A program made the translations under genes and the position numbers. A stretch of 33,922 bases of DNA. Source: an archaeon. GTDB lineage: Archaea > Thermoproteota > Thermoprotei_A > Marsarchaeales > Marsarchaeaceae. The stretch spans positions 1 to 33,922 of the forward strand of contig JAKAWJ010000020.1 in NCBI GenBank assembly GCA_021817005.1. The letters run 5' to 3'. The notes under the pieces were generated by a model. It worked only from the letters and a program-made list of their open reading frames with translations, did no database searches and was not told where the DNA came from. This document shows positions 2,495 through 26,030 of this stretch, piece after piece (position 1 is the stretch's first letter; the number at the start of each line of letters is the position of its first letter).

Positions 2495-3796
2495 TTGTCT
2501 ACGGAGAAGTTCGACGCAATAGTGGTCGGGGCTGGACCTGCGGGAACGGCTGCGGCCCTGACTATGGCGAAAGGGGGGCTCTCGGTCGCCCTTATAGAGC
2601 GCGGCGAGACGCCGGGCGCTAAAAACGTGTTTGGGGGAGTAGTCTACAAATGGCCTTTAGAAGAAATCATCCCCAAGTTTTGGGAAAAGGCCCCCATTGA
2701 AAGGAAGATTATAGACCACAGAATGGTAATACTTGGAAAGGACTCGGGATTTTCAGTATCATACAAGGATGATTATCTAGGGATGGAGACAAGAGGGGGG
2801 TTTACCGCTTTGCGCTCCAAGTTCGATCCTTGGTTCGCCCAGCAAGCTGAAGAGGCCGGAGCTACCCTAGTCACATCCATGCCAGTCTCCGAGGTCATCG
2901 AGGAAGGCGGTCGAGTGGTGGGAATTCGCGCCGGCAGAGGAAAGGAGAACGAGCTCTATGCTCAAGCCATTGTGGCCGCTGATGGAGTTATGTCCACCGT
3001 GCTTCAGAAGGCTGGCATAAGGGGTCCTCCTGCCCCGGAAGACGTTGCGATTGGACTGAAAGAGGTGATTGAATTACCCTCCGAGACTATAGATTCAAGG
3101 TTCAACCTCAAAAGAGGATACGGCGCACGGCTGGATTATCTTGGTTCAGTTGCCAGAGGGAAATCGGGTGGCGGATTTGTTTACACAAACTCTAATACTC
3201 TTAGCGTTGGTATTGCAGTGCTTCTTAGCCATCTTCTTGAACTGCATTGTAAACCATACGAAATATTGGACGAATTCAAGTCCCACCCGGTAGTCGCCCC
3301 CCTGCTGGAGGGCGGGCGTGTGAAGGAGTATCAGGCGCACCTGATACCCGAAGGCGGGCTCCAATCTATTCCGCCGCTTGCTAGTCGTGGTGTCCTGGCA
3401 GTTGGCGACGCGGCAATGCTCTGTTTGTATCCAGAAGGTACTAACATGGCAATGGCATCGGGTGTAATGGCTGGTAAAACAATTTTAGAGAGCAAAAAGG
3501 CTGGAGACTTTTCGATCCAGAGACTCATGCTTTATGAAAGATTGATGAAAGAAAGTTACATCTTTAAGGAGCATTCTAGGAAAAAGAACTACCATAATAT
3601 CCTTACTTCAGGCGACAGATTCAACACAGACTATCCTGATGCGATTACTGAAATCATGCGGAATATACTTGTAGTTGATGGGGTTGACCGCGGATCAAAG
3701 CACGCAGCAGCTAGGAAGGTAATAAGAGACAAAGTTGGCTACGTGAGAGTTCTCCGCGACTTGTATCGCGATATTTGGTCGGCTCTGCCATGGTAA
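2495..3796 (+). CDS. fixC: FixC / ETF-quinone oxidoreductase-like flavoprotein
   Basis: A 433-residue FAD-dependent dehydrogenase of the FixC/EtfC family. The N-terminal dinucleotide-binding motif VGAGPAGTAAA is at residues 11-21, followed by the FixC-type GAKNVFGG segment. The second FAD motif is in GVLAVGDAAMLC, followed by PEGTNMAMASG. FixC receives electrons from the ETF heterodimer and passes them to membrane quinone. The start is TTG, since no ATG precedes the FAD motif. Its stop overlaps the ATG of fixX (ATGGTAA). It is the first gene of a four-gene operon with fixX, etfB and etfA, the set known as FixABCX or EtfABCX. Confidence 0.93.
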   Translation: MSTEKFDAIVVGAGPAGTAAALTMAKGGLSVALIERGETPGAKNVFGGVVYKWPLEEIIPKFWEKAPIERKIIDHRMVILGKDSGFSVSYKDDYLGMETRGGFTALRSKFDPWFAQQAEEAGATLVTSMPVSEVIEEGGRVVGIRAGRGKENELYAQAIVAADGVMSTVLQKAGIRGPPAPEDVAIGLKEVIELPSETIDSRFNLKRGYGARLDYLGSVARGKSGGGFVYTNSNTLSVGIAVLLSHLLELHCKPYEILDEFKSHPVVAPLLEGGRVKEYQAHLIPEGGLQSIPPLASRGVLAVGDAAMLCLYPEGTNMAMASGVMAGKTILESKKAGDFSIQRLMLYERLMKESYIFKEHSRKKNYHNILTSGDRFNTDYPDAITEIMRNILVVDGVDRGSKHAAARKVIRDKVGYVRVLRDLYRDIWSALPW

Positions 3797-4083
3797 ACCC
3801 TCCGTCAAGGAAGATTGATGAGCGCCTCTATGTAAATCGCTATAATGTACATTCCGAAAATCACCTTCATGTTGACCAGTCCAAATGTCAGGAGTGCAGG
3901 GACAAACCCTGCACTTTCTCGTGTCCTGTCGATGACTATGTCTGGGACCCTGAACTCAAGCGTCTTACTGTGTTTTACGAGGGCTGTGTCGAATGCGGAG
4001 CTTGCGTAGTGGTGTGCCCCTACCACAAGATAGCCTTGGATTACCCGCCTGCTGGCAGAGGTGTGAATTTCAGATTTGGTTAG
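3790..4083 (+). CDS. fixX: FixX ferredoxin-like iron-sulfur protein
   Basis: A 97-residue ferredoxin-like partner of FixC. It has eight cysteines in two groups: C33, C36, C41, C45 (C-x2-C-x4-C-x3-CP) and C66, C69, C72, C76 (C-x2-C-x2-C-x3-CP). The second group is a clear [4Fe-4S] motif. I chose the ATG at 3790, which overlaps the fixC stop in ATGGTAA. A TTG at 3775 would add five residues and lengthen the overlap. The 3' end overlaps the TTG start of etfB by eight bases. Together with FixC it should form the quinone-reducing module. Confidence 0.92.
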   Translation: MVNPPSRKIDERLYVNRYNVHSENHLHVDQSKCQECRDKPCTFSCPVDDYVWDPELKRLTVFYEGCVECGACVVVCPYHKIALDYPPAGRGVNFRFG

Positions 4084-4894
4084 TGGAGCGAGCGTTGGCC
4101 TGAACATTCTGCTTGCGGTGAAGCAGGTTCCCGATGTATCTGAACTCAGATTGGACCCCGTGACTCATTCGCTTTTGAGAGAGGGCGTACCGAGCGTGCT
4201 CAATCCCTACGACCGTTATGCGTTGGAAGCTGGTCTCCGTCTGAAGGAAATTCATGGAGGCAGATTAACAGTCGTGAGTATGGGTCCCCCTCAGGCGAGA
4301 AAGGCTCTTCAGGAGAGTTTGGCACTAGGAGCAGACGAGGCTGTGCTTCTTACTGACCGGGCTTTCGCAGCAGCAGATACTTGGGCAACTGCATATACTC
4401 TCTCAGTCTTTGCCAAAACTTTACCTTTTAATATGGTCCTTACAGGACTGAAAGCGATCGACGGAGAAACAAGCCAGGTTGGCGCCGAGCTCGCGGAGTT
4501 CCTTGACATTCCGCATGCTTCCTACGTTCGAAAGATCGACCTTAGGGAGGACATGCAAGGAGTGACCATAGAGCGCCAGCTTGAAAACGGCTACGATGTC
4601 TGGGAGCTTCCCCTCCCGTGTCTGCTAATGGTGGCCAAGGAGTTTGGTCAACCACGGCTTGCAACTCTTCAGGGTTACATTCGGGCAAAGAGGCAGAAGA
4701 TACGCATACTTACTGCCCATGACTTGGAGGCACTGGGGGCTAATTCCGCGAATTTCGGTCTAAAGGGTTCTCCGACATTCATACCCAAGGTCTCGCCACC
4801 ACCCGCCAAGCCGCCCGGAACAATATGGAGTGGTGACCCCAAGGACTCTGTAAGGAAGCTCGTGGACGCGCTCTCAAGGGAGGGATTCGTCTAG
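4076..4894 (+). CDS. etfB: Electron transfer flavoprotein beta subunit (FixA/EtfB)
   Basis: A 272-residue ETF beta subunit. The N-terminal strand is NILLAVKQVPD. It is followed by LLREGVPSVLNPYDRYALE, the SMGPPQA loop, GADEAVLLTDRAFAAADT and the AMP/FAD-loop segment KAIDGETSQVG, all typical of the FixA/bifurcating-type EtfB group. In that group the beta subunit binds NADH and the bifurcating flavin, so bifurcation is plausible here but is inferred from family resemblance. The start is TTG at 4076, eight bases inside fixX. A proline-rich tail (about residues 235-250) extends beyond the common core. Confidence 0.92.
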   Translation: MVSGASVGLNILLAVKQVPDVSELRLDPVTHSLLREGVPSVLNPYDRYALEAGLRLKEIHGGRLTVVSMGPPQARKALQESLALGADEAVLLTDRAFAAADTWATAYTLSVFAKTLPFNMVLTGLKAIDGETSQVGAELAEFLDIPHASYVRKIDLREDMQGVTIERQLENGYDVWELPLPCLLMVAKEFGQPRLATLQGYIRAKRQKIRILTAHDLEALGANSANFGLKGSPTFIPKVSPPPAKPPGTIWSGDPKDSVRKLVDALSREGFV

Positions 4895-6003
4895 TGTCCG
4901 CGCAAAGCCAGTTTGGTGTTGTTACAGATTCAGAGACTCTGCGCCGTCTCGCGGAATACAAGGGTATTTGGACCTATGCCGAAGTCGAGAGCGGACAACT
5001 AACCGAAGTCAGCCTGGAGCTCTTGACAGGTGCGCGTTCAATTGCCAAAAAGACAGGTGAGCAAGTAGCTTCAGTGCTGGTGGGTCAAGAGGTGGAGCGG
5101 TTCGTAGCGGAGTTATCGGCCTTTGGCGCTGACAAGGTCTTCGTGATCCAGGACCCCCGGCTGCGATCTTATGCTTCTGATTCGTATACCGAGGCAGTTG
5201 CGCAGCTCACGAGGGAAAAAAAGCCCTCGGTCTTCCTCTTTGGAGCTAACAGAAACGCGAGAGATTTGGCTTCCCGGCTTGCGGGCAGGTTGAACACCGG
5301 CCTTGCAGCTGACTGTATTAAACTTGAGGTGAACGAGCGTGGCCAGCTCGAGCAGATAAGACCGGATTTCGGAGGTAAGGAGCTTTCGGTTGTGCTCGCC
5401 CCGAGGCACAGACCCCAGATGACAACAATACGTCCGGGCTCTTACCGAAAGCAGGAGCCAGACTACAGCAGAGTCTCTTCATCCGAGTACTTTGTCCCCA
5501 AGCTTTCAGAAAATCACTGTAGGATCAAAGTTCTGAAGAACGTGCGCCAGCCCATAGATCCGAGCGAAGACATCGAAAAGGCCACAGTGCTTGTGTCTGG
5601 AGGAATGGGCCTCCGTAGCAAGGAGAATTTTGAGCTATTACGTAGACTTGCCGGGTTGTTCGGTAATGCTTCTGTGGCAGGAACCCGTTCAGTATGCGAG
5701 AAAGGCTGGTTGCCCTCAAGTGTGCAGGTGGGGCAAAGCGGGAAGACTGTGTCGCCCAAACTCTATTTTGCCGTAGGCCTGTCAGGAGCGATACAGCATC
5801 TTGTAGGAATGCAGAACTCAGAGATAGTGGTGGCCATAAATTCGGATGCTGAGGCCCAAATTTTCAAAGTTTGCACTTATGGAATAGTCGGCGATTTATT
5901 CCAGGTAGTGCCACTTCTGATTGATGAGATTAAGAAGGTAAGGGTCGAGCGGAAGCTGATGCGTGAGACGGTTACGGTTGGAACACCAGCGGGGGACCCG
6001 TAG
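4894..6003 (+). CDS. etfA: Electron transfer flavoprotein alpha subunit (FixB/EtfA)
   Basis: A 369-residue ETF alpha subunit. The N-terminal domain begins YKGIWTYAEVESG. The linker has RPDFGGKELS and RPQMTTIRPG. The C-terminal FAD domain has QVGQSGKTVSPKLY, GLSGAIQHL, VVAINSDAEAQIF and YGIVGDLFQVVP. The flavin-contacting arginine is kept in GTRSV. The loop usually written SGGRG reads SGGMG. No extra ferredoxin domain is present at the N-terminus. The GTG start overlaps the etfB stop (TAGTG), giving translational coupling. It ends the fix/etf operon. Confidence 0.92.
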   Translation: MSAQSQFGVVTDSETLRRLAEYKGIWTYAEVESGQLTEVSLELLTGARSIAKKTGEQVASVLVGQEVERFVAELSAFGADKVFVIQDPRLRSYASDSYTEAVAQLTREKKPSVFLFGANRNARDLASRLAGRLNTGLAADCIKLEVNERGQLEQIRPDFGGKELSVVLAPRHRPQMTTIRPGSYRKQEPDYSRVSSSEYFVPKLSENHCRIKVLKNVRQPIDPSEDIEKATVLVSGGMGLRSKENFELLRRLAGLFGNASVAGTRSVCEKGWLPSSVQVGQSGKTVSPKLYFAVGLSGAIQHLVGMQNSEIVVAINSDAEAQIFKVCTYGIVGDLFQVVPLLIDEIKKVRVERKLMRETVTVGTPAGDP

Positions 6004-6723: not shown

Positions 6724-7287
6724 ATGACTACGGTAGTTGGTATAAAGACGCAGGGGGGAGTCGTGCTCGCGTCAGACAAGAGAGCGAGCAAGGGCTTCTT
6801 CATTGCATCAAAGGAAGCCCAGAAAATCTTCAAAATTGACGAATTCACGGCTTCGGCAATTGCGGGGCAAGTCTCGGATGCTGAGTATCTTGTCCACTTG
6901 GTGCAGGCCCAGAGAAGACTGATTGAATTGGAGCGGGGCTACAAGCCGTCAGTATTCGAAACTACGAGGTTGATCGCAAACTCTGCCTACTCCGGACTGC
7001 GAAACTACGCTCCTTTTCTTGCGGAATTTATTGTAGCCGGTATAGACACTGAGCCAAGGCTCTACTCTACAGATGTGAGCGGCGCAATATCACCCGAAAC
7101 TTTCGTCTCGAACGGCTCTGGTTCTCCGATTGCGTATGGAGTTCTAGAATCTACGTATAAGGATACAATGGACATCAAGCAGGCCGAGGCAGTAGCGAGA
7201 GAAGCGGTCAAGGCCGCGATGCAAAGGGATCCAGGTTCTGGAGACGGGCTCGAAGTGCTGGTTATCGCTGCGGGAGGCAGCCGCTAG
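6724..7287 (+). CDS. psmB: 20S proteasome beta subunit (catalytic)
   Basis: A 187-residue catalytic beta subunit of the 20S core particle. Counting the threonine after the initiator Met as Thr1, Asp17 and Lys33 fall exactly where the family has them (Thr1 TTVVG, Asp17 in ASDKR, Lys33 in AQKIF). The later catalytic-support residues are also present in GSGSPIAYG and RDPGSGDG. There is no propeptide beyond Met, so Met removal alone would expose Thr1. Many archaeal beta subunits carry a short propeptide instead. The stop overlaps the GTG of the alpha gene (TAGTG), giving a coupled beta-alpha pair. Confidence 0.95.
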   Translation: MTTVVGIKTQGGVVLASDKRASKGFFIASKEAQKIFKIDEFTASAIAGQVSDAEYLVHLVQAQRRLIELERGYKPSVFETTRLIANSAYSGLRNYAPFLAEFIVAGIDTEPRLYSTDVSGAISPETFVSNGSGSPIAYGVLESTYKDTMDIKQAEAVAREAVKAAMQRDPGSGDGLEVLVIAAGGSR

Positions 7288-7943
7288 TGTCAACCGGCCA
7301 GGAACGCTATCAGCCGTTCTTCTACGGCCCTGAGGGCAGACTGATTCAGGTTGAATATGCCCAAGAAGCGGTCGGAAAGGGTTCTACGACAGTTGGCATT
7401 AGAACGGACAATTTCTCGCTAATTGGCAGTCACGTGAGGCCGCCGAGAGAGCTAGTCGACCCCTATGATAAAATATTCGAAATAGATGAACATGTGGGCG
7501 CAACCGGAAGCGGTTACATCAGTGATATGCTAAGATTGATTGACGAGCTAAGAATTGAGAGTCAGCAGTACAGGCTCACCATGGGAACCCCAATCGACAT
7601 GTTCACGCTTGCAAAGAGACTCGGTCAGTATATTCACGAATATACTCTCTACTCCGTGCGCCTGCCTGCCTCGTCAATCATACTGGCTGGAGCCGACAAG
7701 CGGGGTACTCACCTGTATCAGGTCGACCCTTCGGGGACTTTCCTGAGAGGTTCAGCTTTTGCAGTTGGCAGGAACAGCGACAAGGCACTGGAGCTCATAA
7801 TCAAAGGCTACACCAGAGACCTTACTGTAGACAAAGCAAAGGATCTGGTTTCGTCGACCATTGAAGCTGCGGTGAATGAGAAACCGCTCTTGCAGTTCGG
7901 GGTTGTGGAGTCGCAGACAGGCAAGTTCAAGAGGGAAGTATAA
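7287..7943 (+). CDS. psmA: 20S proteasome alpha subunit, altered N-terminal gate
   Basis: A 218-residue alpha subunit, shorter than the usual 230-260. The H0-helix signature is intact: GPEGRLIQVEYAQEAV, then GSTTVGI. A lysine sits at the position used for docking ATPase C-termini (YDKIFEID). The gate segment before it is unusual. Alpha subunits normally read YDR followed by about six residues to SPDGR. Here YQP is followed by a spacer two residues shorter, so the gate Asp and Arg are missing. The GTG start overlaps the beta stop. A T-rich stretch after the stop (7958-7964) may end transcription. Confidence 0.92.
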   Translation: MSTGQERYQPFFYGPEGRLIQVEYAQEAVGKGSTTVGIRTDNFSLIGSHVRPPRELVDPYDKIFEIDEHVGATGSGYISDMLRLIDELRIESQQYRLTMGTPIDMFTLAKRLGQYIHEYTLYSVRLPASSIILAGADKRGTHLYQVDPSGTFLRGSAFAVGRNSDKALELIIKGYTRDLTVDKAKDLVSSTIEAAVNEKPLLQFGVVESQTGKFKREV

Positions 7944-13590: not shown

Positions 13591-13622
13591 TCAGAATCGT
13601 GAGGCTTGTGGAGAAGCGCTGG

Positions 13623-14657
13623 ATGGCAACTAGCACTACGTCGGAAGCAGATTCTGCCTATATCGGTTGGGACAGAGACTCTCTCGACTATCAGCTTTTC
13701 CTGTTTAGAGTGTTGCAGGCCGCCAGAGGGTTGTTCGGTGGGGACAAGTTGGTGGTTCTCGGGTCAGTGGCCGCGAGCACATATCTTCGTGTTCCCGAAC
13801 AGCGACTGGTGACAGGAATTGACATCGCTCTCCCGGCTCCTCTGGCATTGCCATTGATACACGACGCCTTCTCCTTATCTACGGCGCTAAATTCAAAACT
13901 GAAAGACGTATCCGGCAGGAGCCGGCTGGCTTCTAACGGGTTTTCGATTGAACTGGGCGTATTTGAACCGGTGCGAGGGAATGTGAACGGCAGGGCCAGG
14001 TTGGTGAGTATTGTAAAAGGCGGCCATTCGACTCTGAGGAGCTGTGGAAAGATCGCCTCACAGTTGGGCTCCAGGGTCTCGCTCTTGGAGGGAGATTCCG
14101 CGACAGCCAAAGCCCGGTATTCTCCAATGTTTTTTGACGTTCGTGTGTGGTCAAATGGGCAACCAGATCGGTCCTCTTGGCTCATTAGCAAGTTTCTCCC
14201 GCGTGGGGCCTCATATAGCAATGCGTCCTCGAAGATGAATGGCCTCGGTTCGCTTGAAATCAATGTGCCTCCGCTTGAGTATATTGTTGCCTCCAAGTTG
14301 AATATGATTTATCAGTCAGGCGTGAATGAAAGATTGATCCGGGCGACGCCATTGAGCGGTCATCTCGCGGCCAAGTCATCCAGGATGAGAATTCTACCAA
14401 CCGATATCTACGACTTTGTGATACTTTCGAGAGGAGCAAGCGCGCTTACCGTGAGAAGGCTTCTTGAGCAGATTGCCAGTGAACCAGTAAATGCACTCTT
14501 GGATTTAACATCCGAAGCCTTCAAGAAAATCTCGGCTACAAAACTCTTTGCTGAACTTAATGACTTCTTGCCAAGCCGAAGTGTGTTTAACCAGAAGATG
14601 TGGGCAGACACCTGCGACAGCGCTATTTCCTACGTGAGGAAGATACGCGCTACCTAG
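13623..14657 (+). CDS. AbiEii-like nucleotidyltransferase-fold protein (tentative)
   Basis: A 344-residue protein. It resembles AbiEii/DUF1814-type nucleotidyltransferases: LVVLGSVAAS (Gly47-Ser48) followed by TGIDIAL at about 64-70, then FFDVRVW, PLEYIVASKLNMIYQ and the late motif PTDIYDFVILSR. In active family members the second element is DxD or DxE; here it is Asp67-Ile-Ala69, so one metal ligand seems missing. I see no AbiEi-like antitoxin next to it. It could be a degenerate toxin, a repurposed enzyme or an unrelated fold. I chose the ATG at 13623 because of the TATA box at 13581; a GTG at 13599 would add eight residues. Confidence 0.5.
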   Translation: MATSTTSEADSAYIGWDRDSLDYQLFLFRVLQAARGLFGGDKLVVLGSVAASTYLRVPEQRLVTGIDIALPAPLALPLIHDAFSLSTALNSKLKDVSGRSRLASNGFSIELGVFEPVRGNVNGRARLVSIVKGGHSTLRSCGKIASQLGSRVSLLEGDSATAKARYSPMFFDVRVWSNGQPDRSSWLISKFLPRGASYSNASSKMNGLGSLEINVPPLEYIVASKLNMIYQSGVNERLIRATPLSGHLAAKSSRMRILPTDIYDFVILSRGASALTVRRLLEQIASEPVNALLDLTSEAFKKISATKLFAELNDFLPSRSVFNQKMWADTCDSAISYVRKIRAT

Positions 14658-24249: not shown

Positions 24250-24404
24250 GTTCTAATCCAAGAGTGGTGTAGAGTGCATGTTCTAAAGTGCTCCGGTGGG
24301 ATAGTGCGGCTTCAGTCCACAAGTCCATCACTCGCAGGTTTGAAAAGGGCATTGGACTTGGAAAAATGAAACGATGTCTCTCTTTCTCGGCAACCCACAT
24401 TGAC

Positions 24405-24416
24405 GTTTAAATACTT
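24405..24416 (+). promoter_or_regulatory. Box A of the Lon-domain gene
   Basis: GTTTAAATACTT is a strong archaeal box-A-like element about 36 bases before the TTG start at 24447. Confidence 0.5.
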
Positions 24417-24446
24417 GCTCAAGAAAACAAACCTGAAAATATCATT

Positions 24447-25241
24447 TTGAGATTCCGCTTTGGTCTTCTTCAGAAATATCCTCCAATACTTTTTCTGGAG
24501 GATTTTGTTGGATTTCCCTACCTGAAGTTTGTTCTCCTTCTTCGTAAGGCCGAACAGGTTGAGGCTCTTAGAAGCGTAAGGAAGGGGGGAAAGATTATTA
24601 TCTGTCCAAGTGCAAAGCTGGAGAAACAGAACGTTTCCACTCTGTGCGTGCTGGAGCACAAAGCCTCTGGGGTAGATGGGACAAGAGCCATTCTGAGGGG
24701 CTTGGCAAGAGTAAGCGTGATTTCGCTCCATTCGAGATTTCCAGTCGTCAGGGCAGGCTATCGTGAGCTTGAGGAAAGAGATAATTTTGGGGGACGAGAG
24801 CAGAGCACGGATATAATTGAACTGATGAAGAACTTGCGTAGTAGCACCAAGGCAATTCCGGAGGGCTTGGTAATGCAGCTTGAGAAGGAGGTCTCTCCCG
24901 GACGACTAGCTGATTTGTGCATGTACGACCCTTATTTCTCTCTCGAGCAGAGAAGAGAAATCCTGTCCACCGTCGACAGTCTCGAGCGCATCCGTAAAGT
25001 TCGCGCGTATCTCAAGGAACAGGTGAATTCTCTTAAGAGCGGCTGGGGAGGCTCGCAAATTTCTGAATGCGAAGTTTGCGATGATTTTGCAGAGCGCGCT
25101 TATGAGGCCCCTCCACTGCAGAGATTTGAAATTGGCAGAAAATTCCTTGAACACGCGGTCGAGCGTCATCCTGACGAGGTACTCGGAGTGGTACTGCAGC
25201 GTTATGGTCCATATTTTGCGGAGCGCAGAGCATTGAGATAA
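24447..25241 (+). CDS. Free-standing Lon substrate-binding (LAN) domain protein
   Basis: A 264-residue protein matching only the N-terminal region of LonA proteases. Residues 12-110 follow the Lon-N strand order: LFLEDFVGFPYLKF, CVLEHKASGVDGTRAILRGLARVSV and FPVVRAGYRELEE. Residues 135-195 form the helical part with EVSPGRLADLCMY, LEQRREILSTVDSLERIRKV. There is no AAA+ ATPase or Ser-Lys protease domain, and the frame closes normally. Residues 208-211 are CEVC, with His236 and His241 later (C-x2-C then H-x4-H), a possible zinc site. Such domains bind unfolded or target proteins, so an adaptor role is an inference. TTG start; own promoter. Confidence 0.82.
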   Translation: MRFRFGLLQKYPPILFLEDFVGFPYLKFVLLLRKAEQVEALRSVRKGGKIIICPSAKLEKQNVSTLCVLEHKASGVDGTRAILRGLARVSVISLHSRFPVVRAGYRELEERDNFGGREQSTDIIELMKNLRSSTKAIPEGLVMQLEKEVSPGRLADLCMYDPYFSLEQRREILSTVDSLERIRKVRAYLKEQVNSLKSGWGGSQISECEVCDDFAERAYEAPPLQRFEIGRKFLEHAVERHPDEVLGVVLQRYGPYFAERRALR

Positions 25242-25271: not shown

Positions 25272-26030
25272 TCAGGAACTGGTTCGCGGTAACAGGTCTC
25301 TTACGATAAGGTAAATTTGATATGAAACGTCGTAAGACCATAACTTGAATCCGATCCATCCGTCGGGGATACCTTGGAAGAGATAGACCTTCGTTCTTCT
25401 CAGGATTCCCTTGAATCGTTTAGAGAAAGCGTCCCTTGGCTCTAATCTCATATATCTTTCCCGCTTGGCAATAATGTCTGCTTCCGAGCCCCACGGCTCA
25501 TGATGTAGTTTTCCATTTGTTAGAATGGTCAGCCGGTTCTTTTGTGCGATAATTCCGTTAATATAGAGCTCCTCGTGAACTTGCCCCTTATAATGTGCAG
25601 AATGAACTGGAAATACCCTCACTTGGAGGCTGTGTCGGCCGAATCTTAATTCCTTGCCCATATAATGCCACGTGCGCCTCACTGCCACCGGTTCATTGGG
25701 AGGGGCTGATTTCAACTCCTCAAGGAATTTTCGGTCTACCCATTCATCCGAATCCATCATCATGACGTATTTTGTCTTGCACGCCGAGATCCCCGCATTT
25801 CGTAATTCCGAAAAGTCTCCCTTCATCTGGATTACTCTGTATGGATTGGCGATTTCTAGTGTGCGGTCCGTGCTATAAGAATCGATGATCAGGATATCGC
25901 CGACCCGGTTCTTTACTGAATCTATCGCTCTCTTGAGGGTTCCCTCCGAATTTTTGGTGAGGATACACACAGTTACCTCATTAAGGTTCATTTTTACGCT
26001 ACCCTGCTTGGCCATTTTGGCCAGTGCCAA
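25272..26030 (-). CDS. Family 2 glycosyltransferase
   Basis: A 252-residue GT-A-fold enzyme. The N-terminal strand VTVCILTKN and IIDSYSTDRT bind the nucleotide, and MMMDSDEWVD carries the metal-binding DxD. FPVHSAHYKGQVHEELY and HHEPWGS resemble the acceptor side of WaaE-like sugar transferases. It has no clear membrane helix, so it likely works at the inner face of the membrane on glycolipids or glycoprotein precursors. The frame opens at TTG 26030, but ATGs at 26015 and 25991 are in frame, and the last, just before NEVTVCILTKN, gives the more usual family N-terminus. No glycan cluster surrounds it. Confidence 0.85.
   Translation of the reverse strand: MALAKMAKQGSVKMNLNEVTVCILTKNSEGTLKRAIDSVKNRVGDILIIDSYSTDRTLEIANPYRVIQMKGDFSELRNAGISACKTKYVMMMDSDEWVDRKFLEELKSAPPNEPVAVRRTWHYMGKELRFGRHSLQVRVFPVHSAHYKGQVHEELYINGIIAQKNRLTILTNGKLHHEPWGSEADIIAKRERYMRLEPRDAFSKRFKGILRRTKVYLFQGIPDGWIGFKLWSYDVSYQIYLIVRDLLPRTSS

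Follow-up and report, generated by a model that had tools for sequence, protein, structure and literature searches.

A free-standing LonA-type substrate-binding domain protein with an extra C-terminal tail in an archaeal genus

Introduction

Proteins consisting of a LON substrate-binding domain alone form an already known class. Two bacterial members have solved structures (1zbo, which is BPP1347, and 7cay), and entries under the name LON peptidase substrate-binding domain-containing protein occur in bacterial plasmid records. In alphaproteobacteria, the lone Lon-N-like protein LotP co-precipitates its main partner GroEL along with ClpX and Hsp40 (PMC5404198). LotP also binds Lon and raises Lon activity, and it is reported to have no chaperone activity (PMC8371691). 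For archaea, our literature search for stand-alone LON proteins found no report, and little is known of dedicated client adaptors for the PAN-proteasome of archaea.

Here we analyzed a stretch of 33,922 nucleotides from an archaeon of the family Marsarchaeaceae (contig JAKAWJ010000020.1; the whole stretch is referred to as the window). A first-pass annotation had described one of its genes as a free-standing Lon substrate-binding protein and had proposed it as an adaptor for LonB or the proteasome, conceptually like the Lon domain of cereblon. The rarity implied by that description does not hold, because free-standing LON proteins are widespread in archaea and bacteria and LotP has already been studied. 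What sets this protein apart is its LonA-type ancestry together with its extra tail.

Results

A LON domain without catalytic domains

The gene lies at 24447-25241 on the forward strand, begins with a TTG start codon and encodes a stand-alone LonA-type LON substrate-binding protein of 264 amino acids. Its sole Pfam match is PF02190 (LON_substr_bdg), which scores 35 bits where the gathering score is 28.7 (E 1.8e-8), and the alignment joins residues 13-190 to profile positions 3-199/200, which is practically the full profile. The proposed family is therefore confirmed by the profile search, but the claim that the whole 264-residue gene belongs to it was wrong, as the match runs from residue 13 to about residue 196. 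PF02190, the AF2 model and the structural match to LonA N-domains together place the LON domain at 24483-25034 (forward strand, residues 13-196), and the PGRLAD motif common to LonA was found within it at 24897-24914 (forward strand, residues 151-156) from the sequence and the alignment. By sequence, a Lon protease N-domain is the closest solved relative (E 1.1e-9), followed by the mycobacterial Lon N-domains 6vbk and 6ihg.

In LonA proteases the N-domain is followed by an AAA+ ATPase and a Ser-Lys protease. When LonA sequences were used as queries against the window, the alignment ended at base 25037 (about residue 197), and no remnant of a Lon ATPase or protease was detected in the window past this base. 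The same locus of the sister species has nothing of the kind downstream either, as the first-pass annotation had stated for the window. The 264-aa ORF is thus confirmed to be a LonA-type N-terminal substrate-binding domain living alone, without catalytic domains.

Elsewhere in the window, a weak Lon protease-like match at 14261-14088 was rejected as a chance hit that contains in-frame stops and runs antisense to another ORF. A 352-aa ORF at 13599-14657 has no Pfam match, and its first part appears nucleotidyltransferase-like by eye. At 2495-6003, an ETF-quinone oxidoreductase-like FAD protein, a ferredoxin-like protein and ETF beta and alpha are encoded in a row, resembling a FixCXBA cluster.

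Predicted fold

With an alignment of the two orthologs alone, AF2 reached a pLDDT of 48.7, which was too poor for use. A second alignment combined the two orthologs with 30 LonA N-domains from IMG/VR contigs, and the resulting model had a mean pLDDT of 77, mostly 80-94 across residues 10-190, with a beta-barrel (~13-110) followed by a helical bundle (~117-197). In structure comparison, this model matched LonA N-domains with Z of 21-23 and rmsd of 2.2-3.0 for the compact matches (the top one with Z 23.1 and rmsd 2.4 over 191 residues), the solved free-standing LON proteins 7cay and 1zbo with Z of 15.7 and 14.0, and the LON region of cereblon with Z of ~14. As the alignment held LonA sequences, the model leans to the LonA fold and serves as a consistency check, while the PF02190 match is the independent evidence. 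Read in this way, the prediction agrees with the Lon-N barrel that had been anticipated, and the protein is predicted to adopt the LonA N-domain fold of barrel plus helical bundle.

LonA-type ancestry and the other stand-alone LON proteins

The same genome encodes another free-standing LON protein, 202 aa long, whose Pfam match is far stronger (E 6e-33), and this ordinary type is present in 5 of the 6 genomes of the family. Its gene (G000:C26:81536-82099; L001:1477-2085, reverse strand) adjoins a thiolase-like gene and a gene of the ChsH2 type with an OB fold and zinc ribbon. Among 398 sampled genomes of the phylum, 43 that belong to one family (f18) encode a LON domain protein, and those of the proteins that were read are free-standing with ~235 aa. 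One f18 genome with its own stand-alone LON protein also holds a bacterial-looking LonA fragment (L026, G287:C19:1-2944), possibly on a contaminating contig.

Since both proteins occur in one genome and belong to one domain family, the 264-aa protein might be a divergent duplicate of the 202-aa one (C26:81536-82099). However, it scored 40.4 bits with a LonA profile versus 5.0 bits with a stand-alone LON profile, and 4.3 bits with a profile built from the family's own stand-alone LON proteins. The tree places it among LonA sequences, adjoining actinobacterial LonA with support of 89/93, on long branches. Moreover, the AU test rejected its grouping with the archaeal stand-alone LON proteins (p 0.006), although grouping with all stand-alone LON proteins was not firmly rejected (p 0.061). 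In the alignment, the protein lacks a 9-residue loop present in most LonA, and mycobacterial Lon lacks it too. We consider the duplicate improbable; by these sequence comparisons, the 264-aa protein is LonA-type in ancestry and not a copy of the genome's other LON protein. With an ordinary and a LonA-type protein in the same family, it is suggested that free-standing LON proteins arose more than once in archaea.

Conservation and neighbourhood of the gene

The known orthologs are only two sequences from one genus. In the sister species (G001, contig JAJYZJ010000095.1, locus L016), the ortholog occupies the same place, has the same length and stop, and is 94% identical. For this pair dN is 0.033 and dS 0.56, giving a dN/dS of 0.058, the lowest among the five shared genes (the others being the glycosyltransferase, hemC, hemB and nudix genes). 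A conserved promoter-like block, TTGACGTTTAAATACTTGCTCA, lies at 24400-24421 on the forward strand, ~26-47 bases before the start codon, and contains a TATA-like TTTAAATA at 24406-24413; its promoter function is inferred. All 22 of its 22 bases are identical in the sister species, and much of the intergenic DNA before it has drifted. Because of the 94% identical ortholog, the dN/dS of 0.058 and its own conserved promoter-like block, the ORF can be taken, on comparative sequence evidence, as a real gene under purifying selection.

These data also bear on whether the gene is just the functionless, decaying remnant of a truncated LonA. Its sequence is indeed nearest to LonA N-domains and not to the stand-alone LON proteins, but a remnant would hardly show the strongest constraint among five shared genes, keep its promoter block, length and stop in both species, and leave no trace of the Lon ATPase or protease in the window. 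We therefore reject decay, which appears very improbable.

The LON gene is alone on its strand, flanked upstream by a divergent chorismate synthase gene and downstream by a convergent gene for a family 2 glycosyltransferase (25272-26030, reverse strand). In G005, a genome from another genus of the same family, hemB, hemC, chorismate synthase (aroC) and HMG-CoA synthase are contiguous, and the segment formed by the LON gene and the glycosyltransferase gene is missing between hemC and aroC. Judged from gene order, this segment may have been either gained in the present genus or lost in that of G005. GC content gave no sign of transfer, at 49% versus 51% for the window. A short-peptide-pattern scan of the genome collection, which finds close relatives only, returned the same-genus contig alone. 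In viral contigs no relatives were found of either this LON protein or the archaeal stand-alone type, and the plasmid collection yielded one marginal LonA match only.

The C-terminal tail

Residues 197-264 (25035-25238, forward strand) form a 68-aa tail of no known family, with no Pfam match over the cut-off. It is predicted to be all-helical in the AF2 model, at a low confidence (pLDDT ~40-67). Direct reading shows a CxxC (C208 and C211; 25068-25079, forward strand) and an HxxxxH (H236 and H241; 25152-25169, forward strand), the two halves of a possible zinc site. Both motifs are identical in the two orthologs, which as two close sequences are weak evidence of conservation. We suggest that the four residues would fit a putative zinc site closing a helical hairpin. 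Within the class, candidate tail relatives were discarded, as they are weak matches only (E 0.05-0.09) without the CxxC-HxxxxH pattern.

The tail also decides how far the comparison with cereblon can go. The LON fold part of that analogy stands, while the tail does not resemble the C-terminal CULT domain of cereblon, a beta-tent with zinc: it is short, predicted helical and without a Pfam match.

Candidate partners

Neither Lon_C (PF05362) nor LonB (TIGR00764) gave a match in any of the six family genomes, which are 71-93% complete (this genome 85%). The proposal of a LonB adaptor is consequently unsupported in this organism, and LonB appears unlikely as a partner from these searches. In the sister family f2, Lon_C proteins of similar frame length (910-943) occur in 4 of 4 genomes; one of them (L017:43-2178, G006:C38) is a fusion that joins an AAA ATPase (PF00004) and a Lon protease domain (PF05362) containing GPSAG, and falls below the LonB cut-off. 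In family f1 no Lon was detected.

A PAN-type ATPase is present in all six family genomes, the proteasome beta and alpha subunit genes are adjacent in the window (6724-7943), and Cdc48-type ATPases are present as well. The proteasome with PAN, which only presence in the genome links to the LON protein, is a possible partner, and Cdc48 or the thermosome are further candidates.

In one reading of these facts, the protein would serve the proteasome as an adaptor in the manner of a primitive cereblon, with the LON domain docking or binding clients and the zinc tail recognizing substrates or PAN. This reading draws on the presence of PAN and proteasome where Lon was not found, on the CxxC...HxxxxH tail and on the structural match to the cereblon LON region. 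Nevertheless, the tail, which is short and predicted to be helical, does not resemble CULT, the LON gene stands alone with nothing in the genome tying it to psmA, psmB or PAN, and two sequences only are at hand, so that we regard this adaptor as unlikely.

Discussion

We tentatively favor, with somewhat less than even confidence, the explanation that a LonA N-domain has been captured as a stand-alone, non-catalytic proteostasis factor that binds clients or partners. Counting against it, the gene's neighbours, chorismate synthase and a glycosyltransferase, give no functional link to a partner. According to this explanation, the ancestor of the genus would have acquired a bacterial-type LonA N-domain, which may then have gained the short, possibly zinc-binding tail. 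The domain would have been kept as a non-catalytic factor for unfolded or damaged client proteins. It would bind these clients, probably in a dimeric or oligomeric state, and might hold them or pass them to an ATPase machine. Because Lon was not found, the candidate machines would be PAN with the 20S proteasome, Cdc48 or the thermosome, to be compared with GroEL, ClpX and Lon in the case of LotP.

The protein might also act with no protease at all, as a holdase or a thermosome regulator. The precedent is LotP, which works mainly with GroEL (PMC5404198), but LotP is reported to be without chaperone activity (PMC8371691) and the precedent is not archaeal. Arguing from this analogy, we hold such an action to be a less probable option that still deserves some weight. 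A more far-reaching proposal is that an archaeal lineage, having lost Lon, turned the captured LonA domain and a new zinc tail into a client adaptor of the PAN-proteasome or Cdc48, parallel to cereblon and of independent origin, and this we offer as speculation with a rather small chance of being right. Whatever its partner, a LonA recognition module under strong selection, with no detectable Lon, would offer a simple test of whether such a domain can feed another machine. The preferred reading, a captured client- or partner-binding factor, can finally be set against four known systems.

First, the LonA N-terminal domain (PF02190; 7cr9, 9jwa, 6vbk and 6ihg) shares its family, its fold and the PGRLAD-type helical part with the 264-aa protein and is the nearest to it by sequence; the protein differs in having neither the AAA+ domain nor the Ser-Lys protease, in lacking the 9-residue loop of most LonA, and in a tail of its own. 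Second, the free-standing LON proteins (1zbo BPP1347 and 7cay) likewise consist of the LON domain alone, with ~200-260 aa and no catalytic domain, whereas the 264-aa protein resembles LonA in sequence, carries an extra tail of 68 aa and is known from one genus only. Third, LotP is also a lone Lon-N-like protein and is reported to work through protein binding within the proteostasis network; however, LotP occurs alongside Lon and raises its activity, while no Lon was found here, and the relation drawn here is one of likeness. Fourth, cereblon similarly joins a LON barrel and a helical bundle to a C-terminal extension, in contrast to which the 264-aa protein was found to have no CULT domain and stands outside a ubiquitin ligase context.
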